Below, one piece after another: positions 7,521 to 12,430 of a stretch of DNA of 64,000 nucleotides. Position 1 is the stretch's first letter. Every line of letters begins with the position of its first letter. Position numbers and translations under genes: made by a program. Below the pieces are notes generated by a model, which searched no databases, was not told the origin of the DNA, and saw only the letters and a list, made by a program, of their open reading frames with translations. Location of the stretch: contig JANQQP010000019.1 in assembly GCA_028285005.1 (NCBI GenBank), positions 62,001 through 126,000 on the forward strand, read 5' to 3'. Source of the DNA: Dehalococcoidia bacterium (GTDB lineage Bacteria > Chloroflexota > Dehalococcoidia > Lucifugimonadales > Lucifugimonadaceae).

Positions 7521-10364
7521 TCACTCCATGTCGCCCCATCGCACGCCGGTCTTAGTCTCCACGTTGAGCGGCACATCCAGTTCCATGGCGGCCGGCATCA
7601 ACTCGACGACCATCGCCTGAAGCTCCATCAGCTCGCCAGGTGCCGCCTCGAATATCAGCTCGTCATGAACCTGTATGAGCATGCGCGATTTCATGCTCTC
7701 GGCCGCGATCGCACGGTCCAGGTCGATCATGGCGATCTTCACGATGTCAGCAGCAGTGCCCTGGATCGGCATGTTGACAGCTACGCGTTCGGCGGCCGAG
7801 CGGTGCATGCCGTTCCTGGACGTGATCTCAGGCAGATACCTCCGTCGACCGTTAATCGTCTCCGAGTATCCGCGCTCCCTTGCCAACTCTTTCGTGCCGT
7901 CTATGTACTCTCGAAGCCCGGGATACTTGCCGAAGTAGAGGTCTATGAACTCCTGACCCTGTTGACGCGTTAGATCGGTCTGCCTTGCGACTCCGTGTGG
8001 GCCAAGCCCGTAGATGACGCCGAAGTTGAGAATCTTGGCGATTCGGCGCTGGTCCGGGGTGACGTCTTCGTCGCCGTACATCGCCTTCGCGGTTGCGTTG
8101 TGGATGTCTTCGCCCTGGCGGAACGCTTCGAGCAGTCCTGGCTCTTTTGAAAGATGGGCGAGAATCCTGAGTTCGATCTGGGAGTAGTCAGCTGCGAGTA
8201 GCATCCATCCGTTGTCGGTGTCTGTGGTGAATGCAGACCTGACTCGCCGTCCAAGTTCGGTGCGTACCGGGATGTTCTGCACATTCGGGTCCGTGCTGGA
8301 AAGCCGCCCGGTGGCAGAGCCGACCTGGTTGAAGCTTGTGTGCACCCTGTGAGTACGCGGGTTCACCAGTAGCGGAAGAGCGTCAACGTAGGTGGACTTC
8401 AGCTTGGTGAGTTCGCGGTACTTAACGACCGCCGAGGCAAGCTCATAGACGCGGTCATCGAGATTAGGAGTCTCCATGATCCCTTCGAGCGCGTTGGCGT
8501 CCATTGACCAACCGGTTTTCGTGCGGCGTGTCTTGGGAGCGCCAAACTCGTCGATCAGTATCGCCGCCACCTGCTGGTTGGCGTTGAGATTGAGCTCCCT
8601 GCCGCCGAGAACGGCTGAGGCCGCCTGCTTGATGTTCTCAAGCTCAGACCCGAGCTCTTCGGACATCTCGGCCAGCATGCCGGTGTCCACTTCGAAGCCA
8701 TTGCGCTGCATCGATACGATCACCGGCAGCAGCGGTATTTCGATGTCGTTGTTGACGGAGTTAGCGCCGTGCTTCTCGAGTTGAGGCTCGAAGAACTCCC
8801 TGAGCCGCCATGCAATGTCGGCATCAGCGCTGGCGTACGGAGCAGCGCGTTCAATCGGCACCTCTGCCATGGTTATCTGTTTGCGACCAGTCCCGATCAG
8901 ATCGGTGATCGGCATCATCTCGATGTGAAAGCAATCAACAGAGAGTTGCTTTAGGCCGATACCACGGCGGCCGCACAGCGCAGCCGCGATCATCGAGTCA
9001 AAGTCGACACCCTGTGGTGTGATTCCGACTTCGTGCAACACCATCATGTCGTAATTGGCGTTGTGGGCCGTTTTGGGGATCTTCGGGTCTTCGAATAGAG
9101 GTCGGAGCGTTGAGAGCGCTTTTTCGAATGGGATCTGTTCACCTTCGTCGTGGCCCACCGGCACGTACCAGGCGAGAGCAGCTTCGTTCGAGAAGGAGAG
9201 ACCAACCAGGGACGCTCGCATTGGATCGGTCCCGGTGGTTTCGGTGTCGAATGCGAATCCTCGGTCAGTCGAGAGGGTCTTCACCATCTCTTTCAACTCA
9301 TCGAGGTCAATCACAGTCCTGTAGTCGACCTCTTCGCCCGCTGGAGATGGGGTTGCTGAAGCATCTCCCGAAGAGGCGCCATTCGTGCTTACCGTCGCAC
9401 CCAATCCAAGCTGAGCGCCGTCTGCAGGAGGACCCCAGGGATCATCGGTAGATGGGTCGGGAATCTGGCGGAGGACAGTGCGGAACTCAAGACTGCCGAG
9501 TACTTCAATCACTTCAGACCGGTCGTAGGTAGCGAACTCAGCATCGTTGAGATCGAATTCGATCGGCACGTCTCTGACGATGGTCGTAAGTTTCAGACCG
9601 TCGAATGCCACCTGCCGGTTCTCTTCAAGCCGCGTCTGGACGCTCTTGGCTCCACGCAGCTCGTCCTTGGGTATCTCTGCAACGCCTTCGATATTCGCGT
9701 AGACATCTTCCAGATGGCCGAACTTCCTCAGCACAGTCCGCGCGGCCTTCGGCCCGACCTTTGGCACGCCGGGAATATTGTCGGAAGGGTCTCCTTCAAG
9801 TGCCTTGATCTCAGCGACGTACTCGGGACCCAGTCCGTCGTAGCGTTCTGCGACTGCCTCCCTGTCGTAGACTCTGACGTCTCCGAAGCCCGAGTACATA
9901 AGTAGGCGGGTGTTGTCGGATACGAGCTGGAGTTGGTCCGCGTCTCCGGTCAAGATGAGGCAATCGGCTCCTTCTTCCTCGGCGACTCGCGTAATAGTCC
10001 CGACGAGGTCATCCGCTTCGAAGCCGTCCTTCTTGTAGACGGGAATGCCGAAAGCGGCGCAGATGTTCTCGACCATCGGAATCTGTTCGTGCAGTTCGGG
10101 GTCCGTTGGCGGCCGCTGCGCCTTGTACTGCTCGAACATCTCGTCCCTGAACGTAGGGGCGCTGGTGTCGAAGGTAAGCACCACATGGGTGGGCTTCTGC
10201 TCGCGCAGGGTCCGCAGGAACGTCGTCAGCCAACCGTACGCCCCGCGCGTGTCCTGACCAGAGGACGTGCTCAGGCGCTCCGGGATCGCGAACCAGGCCC
10301 GGAAGACCATTGAGTGGCCATCCATCACAAGCAGCAGGGGCTTCTGTTTTGACTTCGAAGGCAT
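7521..10364 (-). CDS. polA: DNA polymerase I with 5'-nuclease and 3'-5' exonuclease domains
   Basis: Fills gaps and removes Okazaki primers. The order is an N-terminal FEN-type 5' nuclease (DGHSMVFRAW at the start, GDADQLQLV, GDPSDNIPGVPKVGPKAA), then a 3'-5' exonuclease with the metal-binding FDTETTGTD, then the polymerase with motif A LAADYSQIELRILAHL, motif B RRIAKILNFGVIYG and motif C IQVHDELIFE. The intact D-x-E suggests active proofreading, unlike many thermophile and actinobacterial enzymes. I choose ATG 10364 (947 residues) because GGTGAG lies 5 nt upstream; a GTG at 10373 would add three residues. It is divergent from the padR-arsM unit. Confidence 0.96.
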   Translation of the reverse strand: MPSKSKQKPLLLVMDGHSMVFRAWFAIPERLSTSSGQDTRGAYGWLTTFLRTLREQKPTHVVLTFDTSAPTFRDEMFEQYKAQRPPTDPELHEQIPMVENICAAFGIPVYKKDGFEADDLVGTITRVAEEEGADCLILTGDADQLQLVSDNTRLLMYSGFGDVRVYDREAVAERYDGLGPEYVAEIKALEGDPSDNIPGVPKVGPKAARTVLRKFGHLEDVYANIEGVAEIPKDELRGAKSVQTRLEENRQVAFDGLKLTTIVRDVPIEFDLNDAEFATYDRSEVIEVLGSLEFRTVLRQIPDPSTDDPWGPPADGAQLGLGATVSTNGASSGDASATPSPAGEEVDYRTVIDLDELKEMVKTLSTDRGFAFDTETTGTDPMRASLVGLSFSNEAALAWYVPVGHDEGEQIPFEKALSTLRPLFEDPKIPKTAHNANYDMMVLHEVGITPQGVDFDSMIAAALCGRRGIGLKQLSVDCFHIEMMPITDLIGTGRKQITMAEVPIERAAPYASADADIAWRLREFFEPQLEKHGANSVNNDIEIPLLPVIVSMQRNGFEVDTGMLAEMSEELGSELENIKQAASAVLGGRELNLNANQQVAAILIDEFGAPKTRRTKTGWSMDANALEGIMETPNLDDRVYELASAVVKYRELTKLKSTYVDALPLLVNPRTHRVHTSFNQVGSATGRLSSTDPNVQNIPVRTELGRRVRSAFTTDTDNGWMLLAADYSQIELRILAHLSKEPGLLEAFRQGEDIHNATAKAMYGDEDVTPDQRRIAKILNFGVIYGLGPHGVARQTDLTRQQGQEFIDLYFGKYPGLREYIDGTKELARERGYSETINGRRRYLPEITSRNGMHRSAAERVAVNMPIQGTAADIVKIAMIDLDRAIAAESMKSRMLIQVHDELIFEAAPGELMELQAMVVELMPAAMELDVPLNVETKTGVRWGDME

Positions 10365-10442
10365 GGTTCTCACCGCCTACTTTCGCAATCGGTAACTGAG
10401 TTCGCCGGATTATAGCTGGCAATTGAACGGTTAACTGCGAGG

Positions 10443-10472
10443 TTGACAATATACCTATCCGACCTATATATT
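10443..10472 (+). promoter_or_regulatory. Promoter of padR-arsM
   Basis: TTGACA at 10443-10448 matches the sigma70 -35 consensus. A -10 candidate is either TATATA (10465-10470, 16-nt spacer) or TATATT (10467-10472, 18-nt spacer). The regulator's ATG is 17-19 nt downstream of the -10, so the leader would be very short. The -10 lies in the centre of the dyad at 10453-10484. Confidence 0.6.
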
Positions 10473-10484
10473 GGTTGGCGAGGT
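10453..10484. promoter_or_regulatory. Imperfect dyad, candidate PadR operator
   Basis: Left arm ACCTATCCGACC (10453-10464) and right arm GGTTGGCGAGGT (10473-10484) are complementary at 9 of 12 positions around an 8-base AT spacer. The dyad covers the -10 element and the ribosome binding site of the padR gene, which is where an autorepressor would act. Binding is an inference. Confidence 0.45.
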
Positions 10485-10488
10485 ATTC

Positions 10489-10911
10489 ATGGTAGTTCAA
10501 TCCGGCCAGATGACTGAAACCAGCTACTGGCAATCGCTGAACAGGAAGAGTCTTCTCAGGTTCTTCCTGTTTTCCGCTCTCGCCGAACGGCCAATGCACG
10601 GCTACGAACTGGCCGATGCGGTGTCTGTTTGCTGCGACGGTGTGAGGCCAACGGACGCCATGATCTACCCGACGCTGAAAGAGCTGGAGAAAAACGGCTA
10701 CATAGTCTGTGAAACCGAACTGATCGGAGAGCGGCGACGGCGAGTATGCTCGCTAACGGAGAAGGGACGCACAGCGTTCCGTTCCGCTGCGCGTGCATGG
10801 ACGCAGGCGTTGCCTCAGATCCAGTCGGCGATTCACTCAGCCGGTGTGCCGGAATGTTGTGACGATTGCGGGAATACACAAGAGCTTGAATTGGAAGGGT
10901 TGGCGAAATGA
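10489..10911 (+). CDS. PadR-family transcriptional regulator, cysteine-rich
   Basis: A 140-residue winged-helix regulator. The PadR signature is MHGYELADAV followed by MIYPTLKELEKNGYIVCE and a LTEKGRTAF wing/helix segment. ATG 10489 is preferred, with GCGAGG upstream; a TTG at 10471 lies inside the -10. It has seven cysteines: C48 and C49 at the start of the recognition region, C74, C87, and a C-terminal CCDDC motif (C123, C124, C127). Its stop overlaps arsM by ATGA. The cysteines and the coupling suggest a thiol sensor for arsenite or another soft metal, which is inference. ArsR-family proteins, not PadR, are the usual regulators of ars genes. Confidence 0.85.
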   Translation: MVVQSGQMTETSYWQSLNRKSLLRFFLFSALAERPMHGYELADAVSVCCDGVRPTDAMIYPTLKELEKNGYIVCETELIGERRRRVCSLTEKGRTAFRSAARAWTQALPQIQSAIHSAGVPECCDDCGNTQELELEGLAK

Positions 10912-11747
10912 AGCAGCTAGACGAGGTTCAGATCAGTCAACTAGACGCAGGCGGATGTGGCGGCGGTAGCTGTGGATGCGGTAGCGACGGTGTTGAGCTG
11001 AAATCGACCAACCTGAACGACGCGATCCAGGAGCGCTACAGCCAGGTTGCCCAACGTGGCGCGAGCACTGATGTTATCGACACTTCGTGCTGCAGCAACG
11101 CGTCATCTCTCTACTCCGAATCCAGCCTCGAGACGGTCACACCACAGGCAGCTGGAGCTTCTGCCGGTTGCGGTAATCCAGTTGGAATCGCAGACGTCAA
11201 TGAAGGCGAGACCGTGCTGGACCTCGGCAGCGGTGGCGGCATCGACTGCTTCCTGGCGGCGAATGCGACCGGTCCCGAAGGACACGTCTACGGCGTGGAC
11301 ATGACGCCTGAGATGCTGAAGCTTGCCCGGTCCAATGCGGAGAAGCTCGATGCCCAGAACGTGACCTTCCTTCTCGGCAAAATCGAGGCTGTGCCGCTGC
11401 CAGATGCGACGGCTGATCTGATCATTTCGAACTGCGTGATCGCCCTGGCGCCTGATAAGCGCATGGTGTTCGATGAGATCTATCGATTGCTGAAGCCCGG
11501 TGGCCGACTCGTGGTTTCGGACATCGTGTCCACGGTCGAATTGCCAGAGGAGGCACGCCAGGACACGGCCGAATGGGTGTCATGCATAGGTGGCGCAGAT
11601 CTATTGTCTCGCTACCTGGACCGCATCAATGACACCGGCTTCGAAAACACAGAGCTCCTCACCGACACACCGCTCAACTCAGAGGCCGACGATCCGTGGA
11701 GAGCGTCACTGCGAAGCGTGACGGTGAGAGCATTCAAGCCCGAATAG
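10908..11747 (+). CDS. arsM: arsenite S-adenosylmethionine methyltransferase (ArsM)
   Basis: Methylates As(III) using SAM, a detoxification step that yields methylated arsenicals. The 279 residues have the class I SAM motif LDLGSGGGIDCF (105-115) and the ArsM hallmarks GCGNP (C88), SNCVIALAPDK (C176) and VSCIGGA (C226). These three cysteines match the As-binding set of characterised ArsM enzymes. The N-terminus carries an unusual Cys/Gly-rich segment, GGCGGGSCGCG (residues 15-25), and a CC pair at 61-62. The gene overlaps padR by 4 bases. No arsenite pump or arsenate reductase is nearby. It converges on the next methyltransferase gene. Confidence 0.92.
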   Translation: MKQLDEVQISQLDAGGCGGGSCGCGSDGVELKSTNLNDAIQERYSQVAQRGASTDVIDTSCCSNASSLYSESSLETVTPQAAGASAGCGNPVGIADVNEGETVLDLGSGGGIDCFLAANATGPEGHVYGVDMTPEMLKLARSNAEKLDAQNVTFLLGKIEAVPLPDATADLIISNCVIALAPDKRMVFDEIYRLLKPGGRLVVSDIVSTVELPEEARQDTAEWVSCIGGADLLSRYLDRINDTGFENTELLTDTPLNSEADDPWRASLRSVTVRAFKPE

Positions 11748-11761
11748 TCGACGGGTTGCAG

Positions 11762-12430
11762 CTATTCAACTGGCGGCTTCCACGCGGTTACGTAGGACAT
11801 TGGTCCGCCGCGCAGGAGCCGCCAGGACGTGTCCGGGTGCAACGGAGTGCTGAGAGAGACGGCTTTCATGCCGGACTTCAGCACTGCGCGTCGGGCGTGG
11901 TACATCCGGATGTGAAGTGCAGAATCGTTTCTGGTTTCTGGTATCGGGCGGTGCGCCCAGCCTCTCAGCCAGTCTCGGCCTGGGAGCAAAAATGGGAACC
12001 TGCTTATCCTGCCGAACCACAGCATTGCCACTCCACCGGGTCTGAGCACTCGTTCTATCTCAATAACGAGCTTCCTAAACGAGTCCAAGTCCGGGAATCT
12101 AAGCACGCCGTGTAGTGAGTAGATGAAATCGACTGAAGCTTCCTCGAACGGGAGCGAATGGTCCGCTTCGGTCGAGGCAAGCTCTATACGTGAAGCATCG
12201 CAGGGCTGTGATCGATTCAGCACGCTGGCGTCACTGGCGTCATCGGTGCTGTCTGTGGCCACGCCGGTAACTCGGCCGAAGTAGCTCGCTGCGGGACAAA
12301 GCAATCGACCGTCGCCATAACCAAGTTCGACCGCGTGGCAGTTCGAGGGATCGGGGATCAGCCTCTCAATAGTCGGCGTAATGATCCGGGCCGAAAACTC
12401 CCAGAACGCGGCGTAACTTTCAGGTTGCAT
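11762..12430 (-). CDS. class I SAM-dependent methyltransferase
   Basis: A 222-residue protein with the SAM-binding motif I AVELGYGDGRLL (about residues 32-43), an acidic motif II region, the stretch SVDFIYSLHGVLRF typical of UbiE/type-11 methyltransferases, and the post-motif RVLRPGGVAMLWFG. The substrate is unknown. It converges on arsM with 14 bases between them and lies 55 bases downstream of the SDR gene on the same strand. No membrane segment is evident. A small-molecule methyltransferase is the most that can be said. Confidence 0.75.
   Translation of the reverse strand: MQPESYAAFWEFSARIITPTIERLIPDPSNCHAVELGYGDGRLLCPAASYFGRVTGVATDSTDDASDASVLNRSQPCDASRIELASTEADHSLPFEEASVDFIYSLHGVLRFPDLDSFRKLVIEIERVLRPGGVAMLWFGRISRFPFLLPGRDWLRGWAHRPIPETRNDSALHIRMYHARRAVLKSGMKAVSLSTPLHPDTSWRLLRGGPMSYVTAWKPPVE

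Follow-up and report, generated by a model that had tools for sequence, protein, structure and literature searches.

A cysteine-rich PadR regulator paired with arsM as a probable arsenical sensor in Chloroflexota

Introduction

In the papers cited here, the repressors that respond to arsenic are all members of the ArsR family. The locus analyzed in this study raises the question of whether a regulator of another family, PadR, can take the same role: in a Dehalococcoidia genome (3.29 Mb, 88% complete), a gene for a cysteine-rich PadR-family protein stands directly upstream of arsM, the gene for arsenite S-adenosylmethionine methyltransferase. An earlier note on this DNA, made from the letters alone, had proposed that the two genes are translationally coupled and that the regulator senses a metal through its cysteines, among which it singled out C48-C49 and a C-terminal CCDDC. 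Below, the window refers to the whole stretch of DNA that was analyzed, 64,000 nucleotides of contig C1; the features discussed are collected in Table 1.

Table 1. Positions of the padR-arsM features in the window
Feature	Position	Strand	Location or basis
Predicted sigma-70-type promoter of the padR-arsM operon, TTGACA-N18-TATATT	10443..10472	+	11/12 consensus matches
Predicted PadR operator, 34-bp palindrome TACCT-N9-ATATAT-N9-AGGTA	10452..10485	.	covers the -10 box
padR, cysteine-rich PadR-family (subfamily-2 type) regulator, 140 aa, ATG start	10489..10911	+	Pfam PF03551, AlphaFold, fold comparison
C48-C49 codons	10630..10635	+	loop directly ahead of the recognition helix
C74 codon	10708..10710	+	first wing strand (72-79 in the model)
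C87 codon	10747..10749	+	second wing strand (82-89 in the model), facing C74
CCDDC codons (C123, C124, C127)	10855..10869	+	variable C-terminal tail
ATGA overlap, padR stop / arsM start	10908..10911	+	ORF coordinates; identical overlap in several relatives
arsM, arsenite S-adenosylmethionine methyltransferase, 279 aa	10908..11747	+	NCBIfam PRK11873 and catalytic-type Cys

Results

padR overlaps a genuine arsM

The product of the downstream gene scored 285.6 bits against the NCBIfam arsenite methyltransferase model PRK11873, whose cut-off is 263, and a motif alignment recovered all three catalytic-type cysteines, C88 (GCGNP), C176 (SNCVI) and C226 (WVSC), which we take, by motif, to be the counterparts of C72, C174 and C224 of CmArsM. 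The ATGA overlap noticed earlier is confirmed, and the arsM that it joins to padR is genuine. Such an overlap is common, if not universal, within the subfamily described below, and suggests that padR and arsM are translationally coupled.

The 88%-complete genome yielded no Acr3, ArsB or ArsP_1, which may leave ArsM as a main means of arsenic detoxification in this bacterium; ten ArsR-type (HTH_5) genes lie elsewhere in the same genome. On the minus strand, a large ORF that, judged by reading alone, resembles DNA polymerase I (7521-10373) is divergent from padR-arsM and shares a short intergenic region with it, and a second SAM-dependent methyltransferase gene (Methyltransf_11; 11762-12430) is convergent with arsM.

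The regulator belongs to PadR subfamily 2

The regulator scored 53.5 bits on the Pfam PadR profile (PF03551; cut-off 27). Besides PadR only HTH_34 was matched; there was no HTH_5/ArsR profile match of the kind that membership of ArsR/SmtB would bring. The AlphaFold model (mean pLDDT 85, falling under 50 for residues 127-140) has helices at 11-33, 38-49 and 56-68, strands at 72-79 and 82-89, and a last helix at 91-117. Fold comparison was led by PadR structures (Z 14-15 over 98-104 residues, rmsd 1.5-2.8); Rv3488, a PadR protein with structures containing cadmium and manganese, was among the nearest folds, and the matches also included two winged helix-turn-helix (wHTH) regulators, the redox regulator HypR and HxlR, whose structure was solved with formaldehyde. 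PadR subfamily 2 is marked by the motifs YGYE(I/L), EGTLYPxLxRLE and RKYYxLTxxG (PMC3506622), which have recognizable counterparts in HGYEL, TDAMIYPTLKELE and RRRRVCSLTEKG, with C87 standing where the canonical RKYYxLT has its second Tyr. By fold and motifs, the window protein is thus a member of PadR subfamily 2 and not an ArsR.

The conserved cysteines are those of the loop and the wing

The window PadR has seven cysteines, at positions 48, 49, 74, 87, 123, 124 and 127. In the AlphaFold model, C48 and C49 end the helix that precedes the recognition helix (56-68), and C74 and C87 lie on facing wing strands, where their positions sum to 161 and the turn falls at 80/81, as for a cross-strand pair. 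Cysteines were counted in an alignment of 40 arsM-linked PadRs, near-relatives included, in which nearly all sequences come from MAGs and the counts are of sequences, not of independent events. At least three cysteines were present in all 40, and at least two lay in the loop ahead of the recognition helix in 38; the exact loop positions varied by clade (CCDG, CDGCC, CCPGA, ACCT and others). The C74 and C87 columns each held Cys in 33 of the 40 sequences. The two wing positions were associated (30 with both, 3 + 3 with one, 4 with neither; Fisher p 0.011, ancestry ignored), and the four sequences with neither, all from a single clade, carry C-terminal cysteines.

The CCDDC that the earlier note had included in the sensing set is present in the window but clade-specific: its CC is kept in the genus and in some clades only, and its third Cys is not retained even by the nearest relatives. 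With a variable tail and low confidence in the model, it was rejected as a general core site. In the aligned sequences the most conserved cysteines are the loop pair together with C74 and C87 of the wing, a partner that the earlier note had not singled out.

Vicinal and cross-strand cysteine pairs chemically suit disulfides, and HypR and HxlR are among the fold matches. The cysteines might thus form a redox or electrophile switch, in which thiol oxidation or alkylation frees the repressor, with ArsM induced among the defenses against thiol stress; the candidate Cys-to-Sec exchange described below would also suit redox chemistry. We nevertheless consider such a switch unlikely, because the neighbors of these regulators are an As(III) methyltransferase, ArsP_1 and ArsK-like MFS proteins rather than general thiol-repair genes, and because three or more cysteines, the usual number, are a better fit to As(III) than to a single disulfide. 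Binding of an arsenical by the loop thiols, the wing thiols or both is the reading that we prefer.

In one arsM-linked PadR (L147, G028:C46:1-7000), an in-frame TGA at about position 2585 falls exactly at the C87 column, in the context QKL-TGA-TLTPRG, and the conserved frame continues past it. The G028 genome has a tRNA-SeC. The hairpin downstream of the TGA gave a z of -1.4, no improvement on many shuffles or on the Cys-codon version in the window (z -1.95). The residue is a candidate selenocysteine at the sensor site, with a nonsense mutation or an assembly error as alternatives. Elsewhere in the order, many further arsM-like genes, more divergent ones, have one in-frame TGA (G303:C17:20574-21221, G793:C61:15926-16609, G803:C46:43077-43766 and others), as expected of the selenoprotein ArsM families named in NCBIfam.

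PadR-arsM pairs recur across Chloroflexota

The earlier note had suggested that PadR-arsM pairs be sought across genomes. With the window PadR as query, a class-wide search of 393 genomes returned about 37 matches below an E of 1e-19; after a gap, other PadRs followed from about 2e-12. Among the 30 best loci, arsM lay directly downstream on the same strand in 25 (25 of the 28 testable); the other five comprised two at a contig edge, one with an MFS gene and two without a recognized arsenic gene. A scan of named genomes, partly overlapping those of the first search, gave 33 loci, with arsM adjoining padR in 28 of the 30 testable; the nearest named relatives were Dehalococcoidia and other Chloroflexota MAGs. 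The gene order was kept across many Chloroflexota families and in one Candidatus Eisenbacteria MAG (L060), and both searches led us to reject a pairing confined to one genus. Many arsM genes of the order stand without this PadR. No relative was found in viral contigs, and plasmids with clear relatives were of only two kinds, Cupriavidus and Roseomonas.

The controls were two PadRs of the window's genome and the 30 canonical PadR loci of the class with the best profile scores, a choice that biases the set to canonical PadRs. None of these 32 carried a cysteine at the loop or wing positions or had an arsM neighbor; one weak methyltransferase match was recorded. In the tree, a branch with 100/98 support sets the Cys-PadRs apart from 31 of the 32 controls; the last control is a very long branch. 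In these sequence comparisons, the cysteine-rich PadRs form a well-separated subfamily.

Since the subfamily clusters in the tree, its association with arsM is partly shared by descent. The cysteines could then be structural, for example as a Zn site or in stabilizing the fold, with some other effector and with the link to arsM as inherited synteny. This we hold to be highly improbable: the partner has changed several times within arsenic-associated families (ArsP_1, MFS, arsM) and the loop cysteines have persisted, and the gene fusions and operator conservation reported below speak for function.

Two loci depart from the simple pair. In L024 (1081-1320; G169:C169), a partial second PadR copy lies between the Cys-PadR and arsM, with the loop cysteines gone and both wing cysteines kept. 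At G248:C3:46340-46579, an arsM-adjacent PadR is interrupted by several stop codons, and the arsM frame is intact.

Members away from arsM mostly adjoin arsenic-associated transporters

Homologues with the same cysteines away from arsM, which the earlier note had named as evidence against its proposal, were indeed found, but most adjoin ArsP_1 or MFS genes. An ArsP_1 permease lies downstream of the PadR in three cases (L068, L102 and L103: a Cupriavidus basilensis plasmid and the Chloroflexota G472 and G017). There are four MFS-linked members: on a Roseomonas mucosa plasmid the PadR precedes an ArsO-like flavoprotein (a weak match) and an MFS protein whose closest similarity is to ArsK, neither of which reaches its equivalog cut-off, and three Chloroflexota PadRs precede MFS transporters whose similarity to ArsK is weaker and ambiguous. 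Only the Thermoflexus-type pair (L063 and L142) has loop cysteines and no recognizable arsenic gene nearby. Because they stand mostly beside arsenic-associated transporters, the members away from arsM support arsenic sensing rather than refute it.

The ArsP-linked PadRs keep the loop pair, with a third loop Cys in one, and have no wing Cys. In ArsR repressors, As(III) takes three cysteines and MAs(III) two, and the two-Cys SpArsR is MAs(III)-selective (PMC11868830). The difference in cysteine set between ArsP-linked and arsM-linked PadRs appears to parallel this rule, in three cases that are too few for proof, and leads to a direct prediction on MAs(III) versus As(III) selectivity.

A sensor of another soft metal (Cd, Zn, Hg, Cu or Sb), or of several, with arsM as one thiophilic-metal defense among others, would be in keeping with the Rv3488 structures that hold Cd or Mn, and with the scores of the ArsP_1 partners against Cu/Zn efflux (SO_0444) and SaoE models, which lie far below the cut-offs. 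Such a sensor is quite improbable given that ArsM, an arsenic-specific enzyme, is by far the commonest neighbor. Against arsenical sensing, our preferred reading, count the shift of the loop cysteines between clades, the Thermoflexus-type pair, the many arsM genes of the order without this PadR, and the operator-like palindrome ahead of a non-Cys PadR that is described below.

A predicted operator covers the shared promoter

The pattern of the predicted promoter (Table 1) was found once, against 0.4 occurrences expected in shuffles. The palindrome over its -10 box ends 3 bases before the padR start and has no second copy in the 3.29-Mb genome; what is conserved upstream of padR in a genus alignment are the blocks of this palindrome. 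In 44 subfamily upstream regions, half-sites showed strong enrichment, 26-27 against 3.4-6 in shuffles. With one mismatch allowed, the palindrome was present in 18 of the 393 genomes, a reversed control pattern in 2; it stood directly upstream of a Cys-PadR in 8, upstream of a different PadR in one, and in the remaining nine no PadR was found. Lying over the -10 box of a promoter shared by both genes, the palindrome would most simply mediate repression together with autoregulation. The ATGT-N8-10-ACAT operator known for LmrR-like members was not present at the window promoter, where this other palindrome stands, which lowers the resemblance to LmrR but not the case for PadR membership.

At G021:C36:9373-9406 (L168), a TACCTA...TAGGTA palindrome of like architecture lies upstream of a PadR without the cysteines. 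It suggests a wider type of PadR operator in the class. An operator specific to arsM was rejected on this ground: the palindrome is a trait of PadR, not of arsenic.

PadR and ArsM share one reading frame in two lineages

At two independent loci, in G370 (L144) and G874 (L143), a single reading frame encodes PadR and ArsM, and both domains were recognized in it; in G874, a sense codon stands where the relatives have the padR stop. The assemblies of both genomes are fragmented, so that a sequencing error could be the cause of the single frame.

Discussion

Considering the operon layout, the cysteine set, the operator-like palindrome, the cross-genome association and the predicted PadR fold together, we consider it quite probable that padR-arsM is an autoregulated, arsenical-responsive operon under a thiolate-based PadR repressor. 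From these features we infer a course of events in which a PadR dimer bound to the palindrome over the -10 box would keep padR-arsM nearly off until trivalent arsenic, most likely As(III) and possibly methylarsenite, enters the cell. Cysteine thiolates in the DNA-binding domain would serve as the arsenic ligands, either C48/C49 or the cross-strand C74/C87 or both, with help from C-terminal cysteines in some clades; the loop and wing cysteines of one subunit may be too far apart to hold one arsenic atom. Coordination would distort or withdraw the recognition helix and the wing, the repressor would leave the DNA, and ArsM would then be made, probably coupled to translation of its regulator. Comparative evidence thus strongly backs a PadR that senses arsenicals through cysteines, as the earlier note had proposed for metal, with the assignment of the site corrected.

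In the open-access literature, from which subscription journals are mostly absent, no work that connects PadR with arsM came up, only incidental co-mentions; the closest case that it offered was chrA-padR in integrons. Judged from the genomes compared, this PadR, which dozens of bacteria carry, most of them uncultured, is most likely an arsenic sensor of a kind not described before, one that induces ArsM. Its fold is that of a known regulator family; its arsenic-type cysteine set is new and apparently convergent. More tentatively, it is possible that a whole arsenic-sensing PadR subfamily arose independently of ArsR, in which the arsM-linked members read As(III) with at least three thiolates, the ArsP-linked members read methylarsenite with the loop pair alone, one lineage has selenocysteine for a sensor Cys and two are fused to ArsM. 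A PadR sensor with this cysteine arrangement would be an independent solution to the arsenic chemistry that ArsR-family repressors have solved, would account for the control of arsM in many of the uncultured Chloroflexota that carry it, and would provide a new biosensor scaffold.

The window PadR shares with other subfamily 2 members (LmrR, bcPadR1/2, Rv3488) the winged helix-turn-helix, HGYEL, TDAMIYPTLKELE in place of EGTLYPxLxRLE, RxRxVCxLTxxG where the canonical sequence is RKYYxLTxxG, a single C-terminal helix with a central Trp (W104) and a length of about 110-140 aa. It differs from the canonical members compared, which lack them, in having cysteines in the loop and on both wing strands, and its predicted operator, TACCT-N9-ATATAT-N9-AGGTA, differs from ATGT-N8-10-ACAT (PMC3506622).

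ArsR/SmtB repressors (R773 ArsR, AfArsR, CgArsR, ArArsR) are likewise small wHTH proteins with three or more cysteines, and their genes precede arsM or another ars gene; ArsRs are derepressed by As(III), and ArArsR heads an arsRMC operon (PMC11868830). The PadR belongs to another protein family, and its loop and wing cysteines are unlike the described ArsR site types. SpArsR of Shewanella putrefaciens, which responds via only two cysteines and controls arsP (PMC11868830, PMC12124457), is paralleled by the PadRs with a bare loop pair beside ArsP_1 permeases; SpArsR has the ArsR fold, and its PadR counterpart is a prediction. Finally, the ArsRM fusion of Brevundimonas sp. M20 binds its own promoter and methylates arsenite (PMC10190100). 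Like ArsRM, the G370 and G874 fusions join a regulator to an arsenite methyltransferase, but the regulator domain that they carry is PadR.
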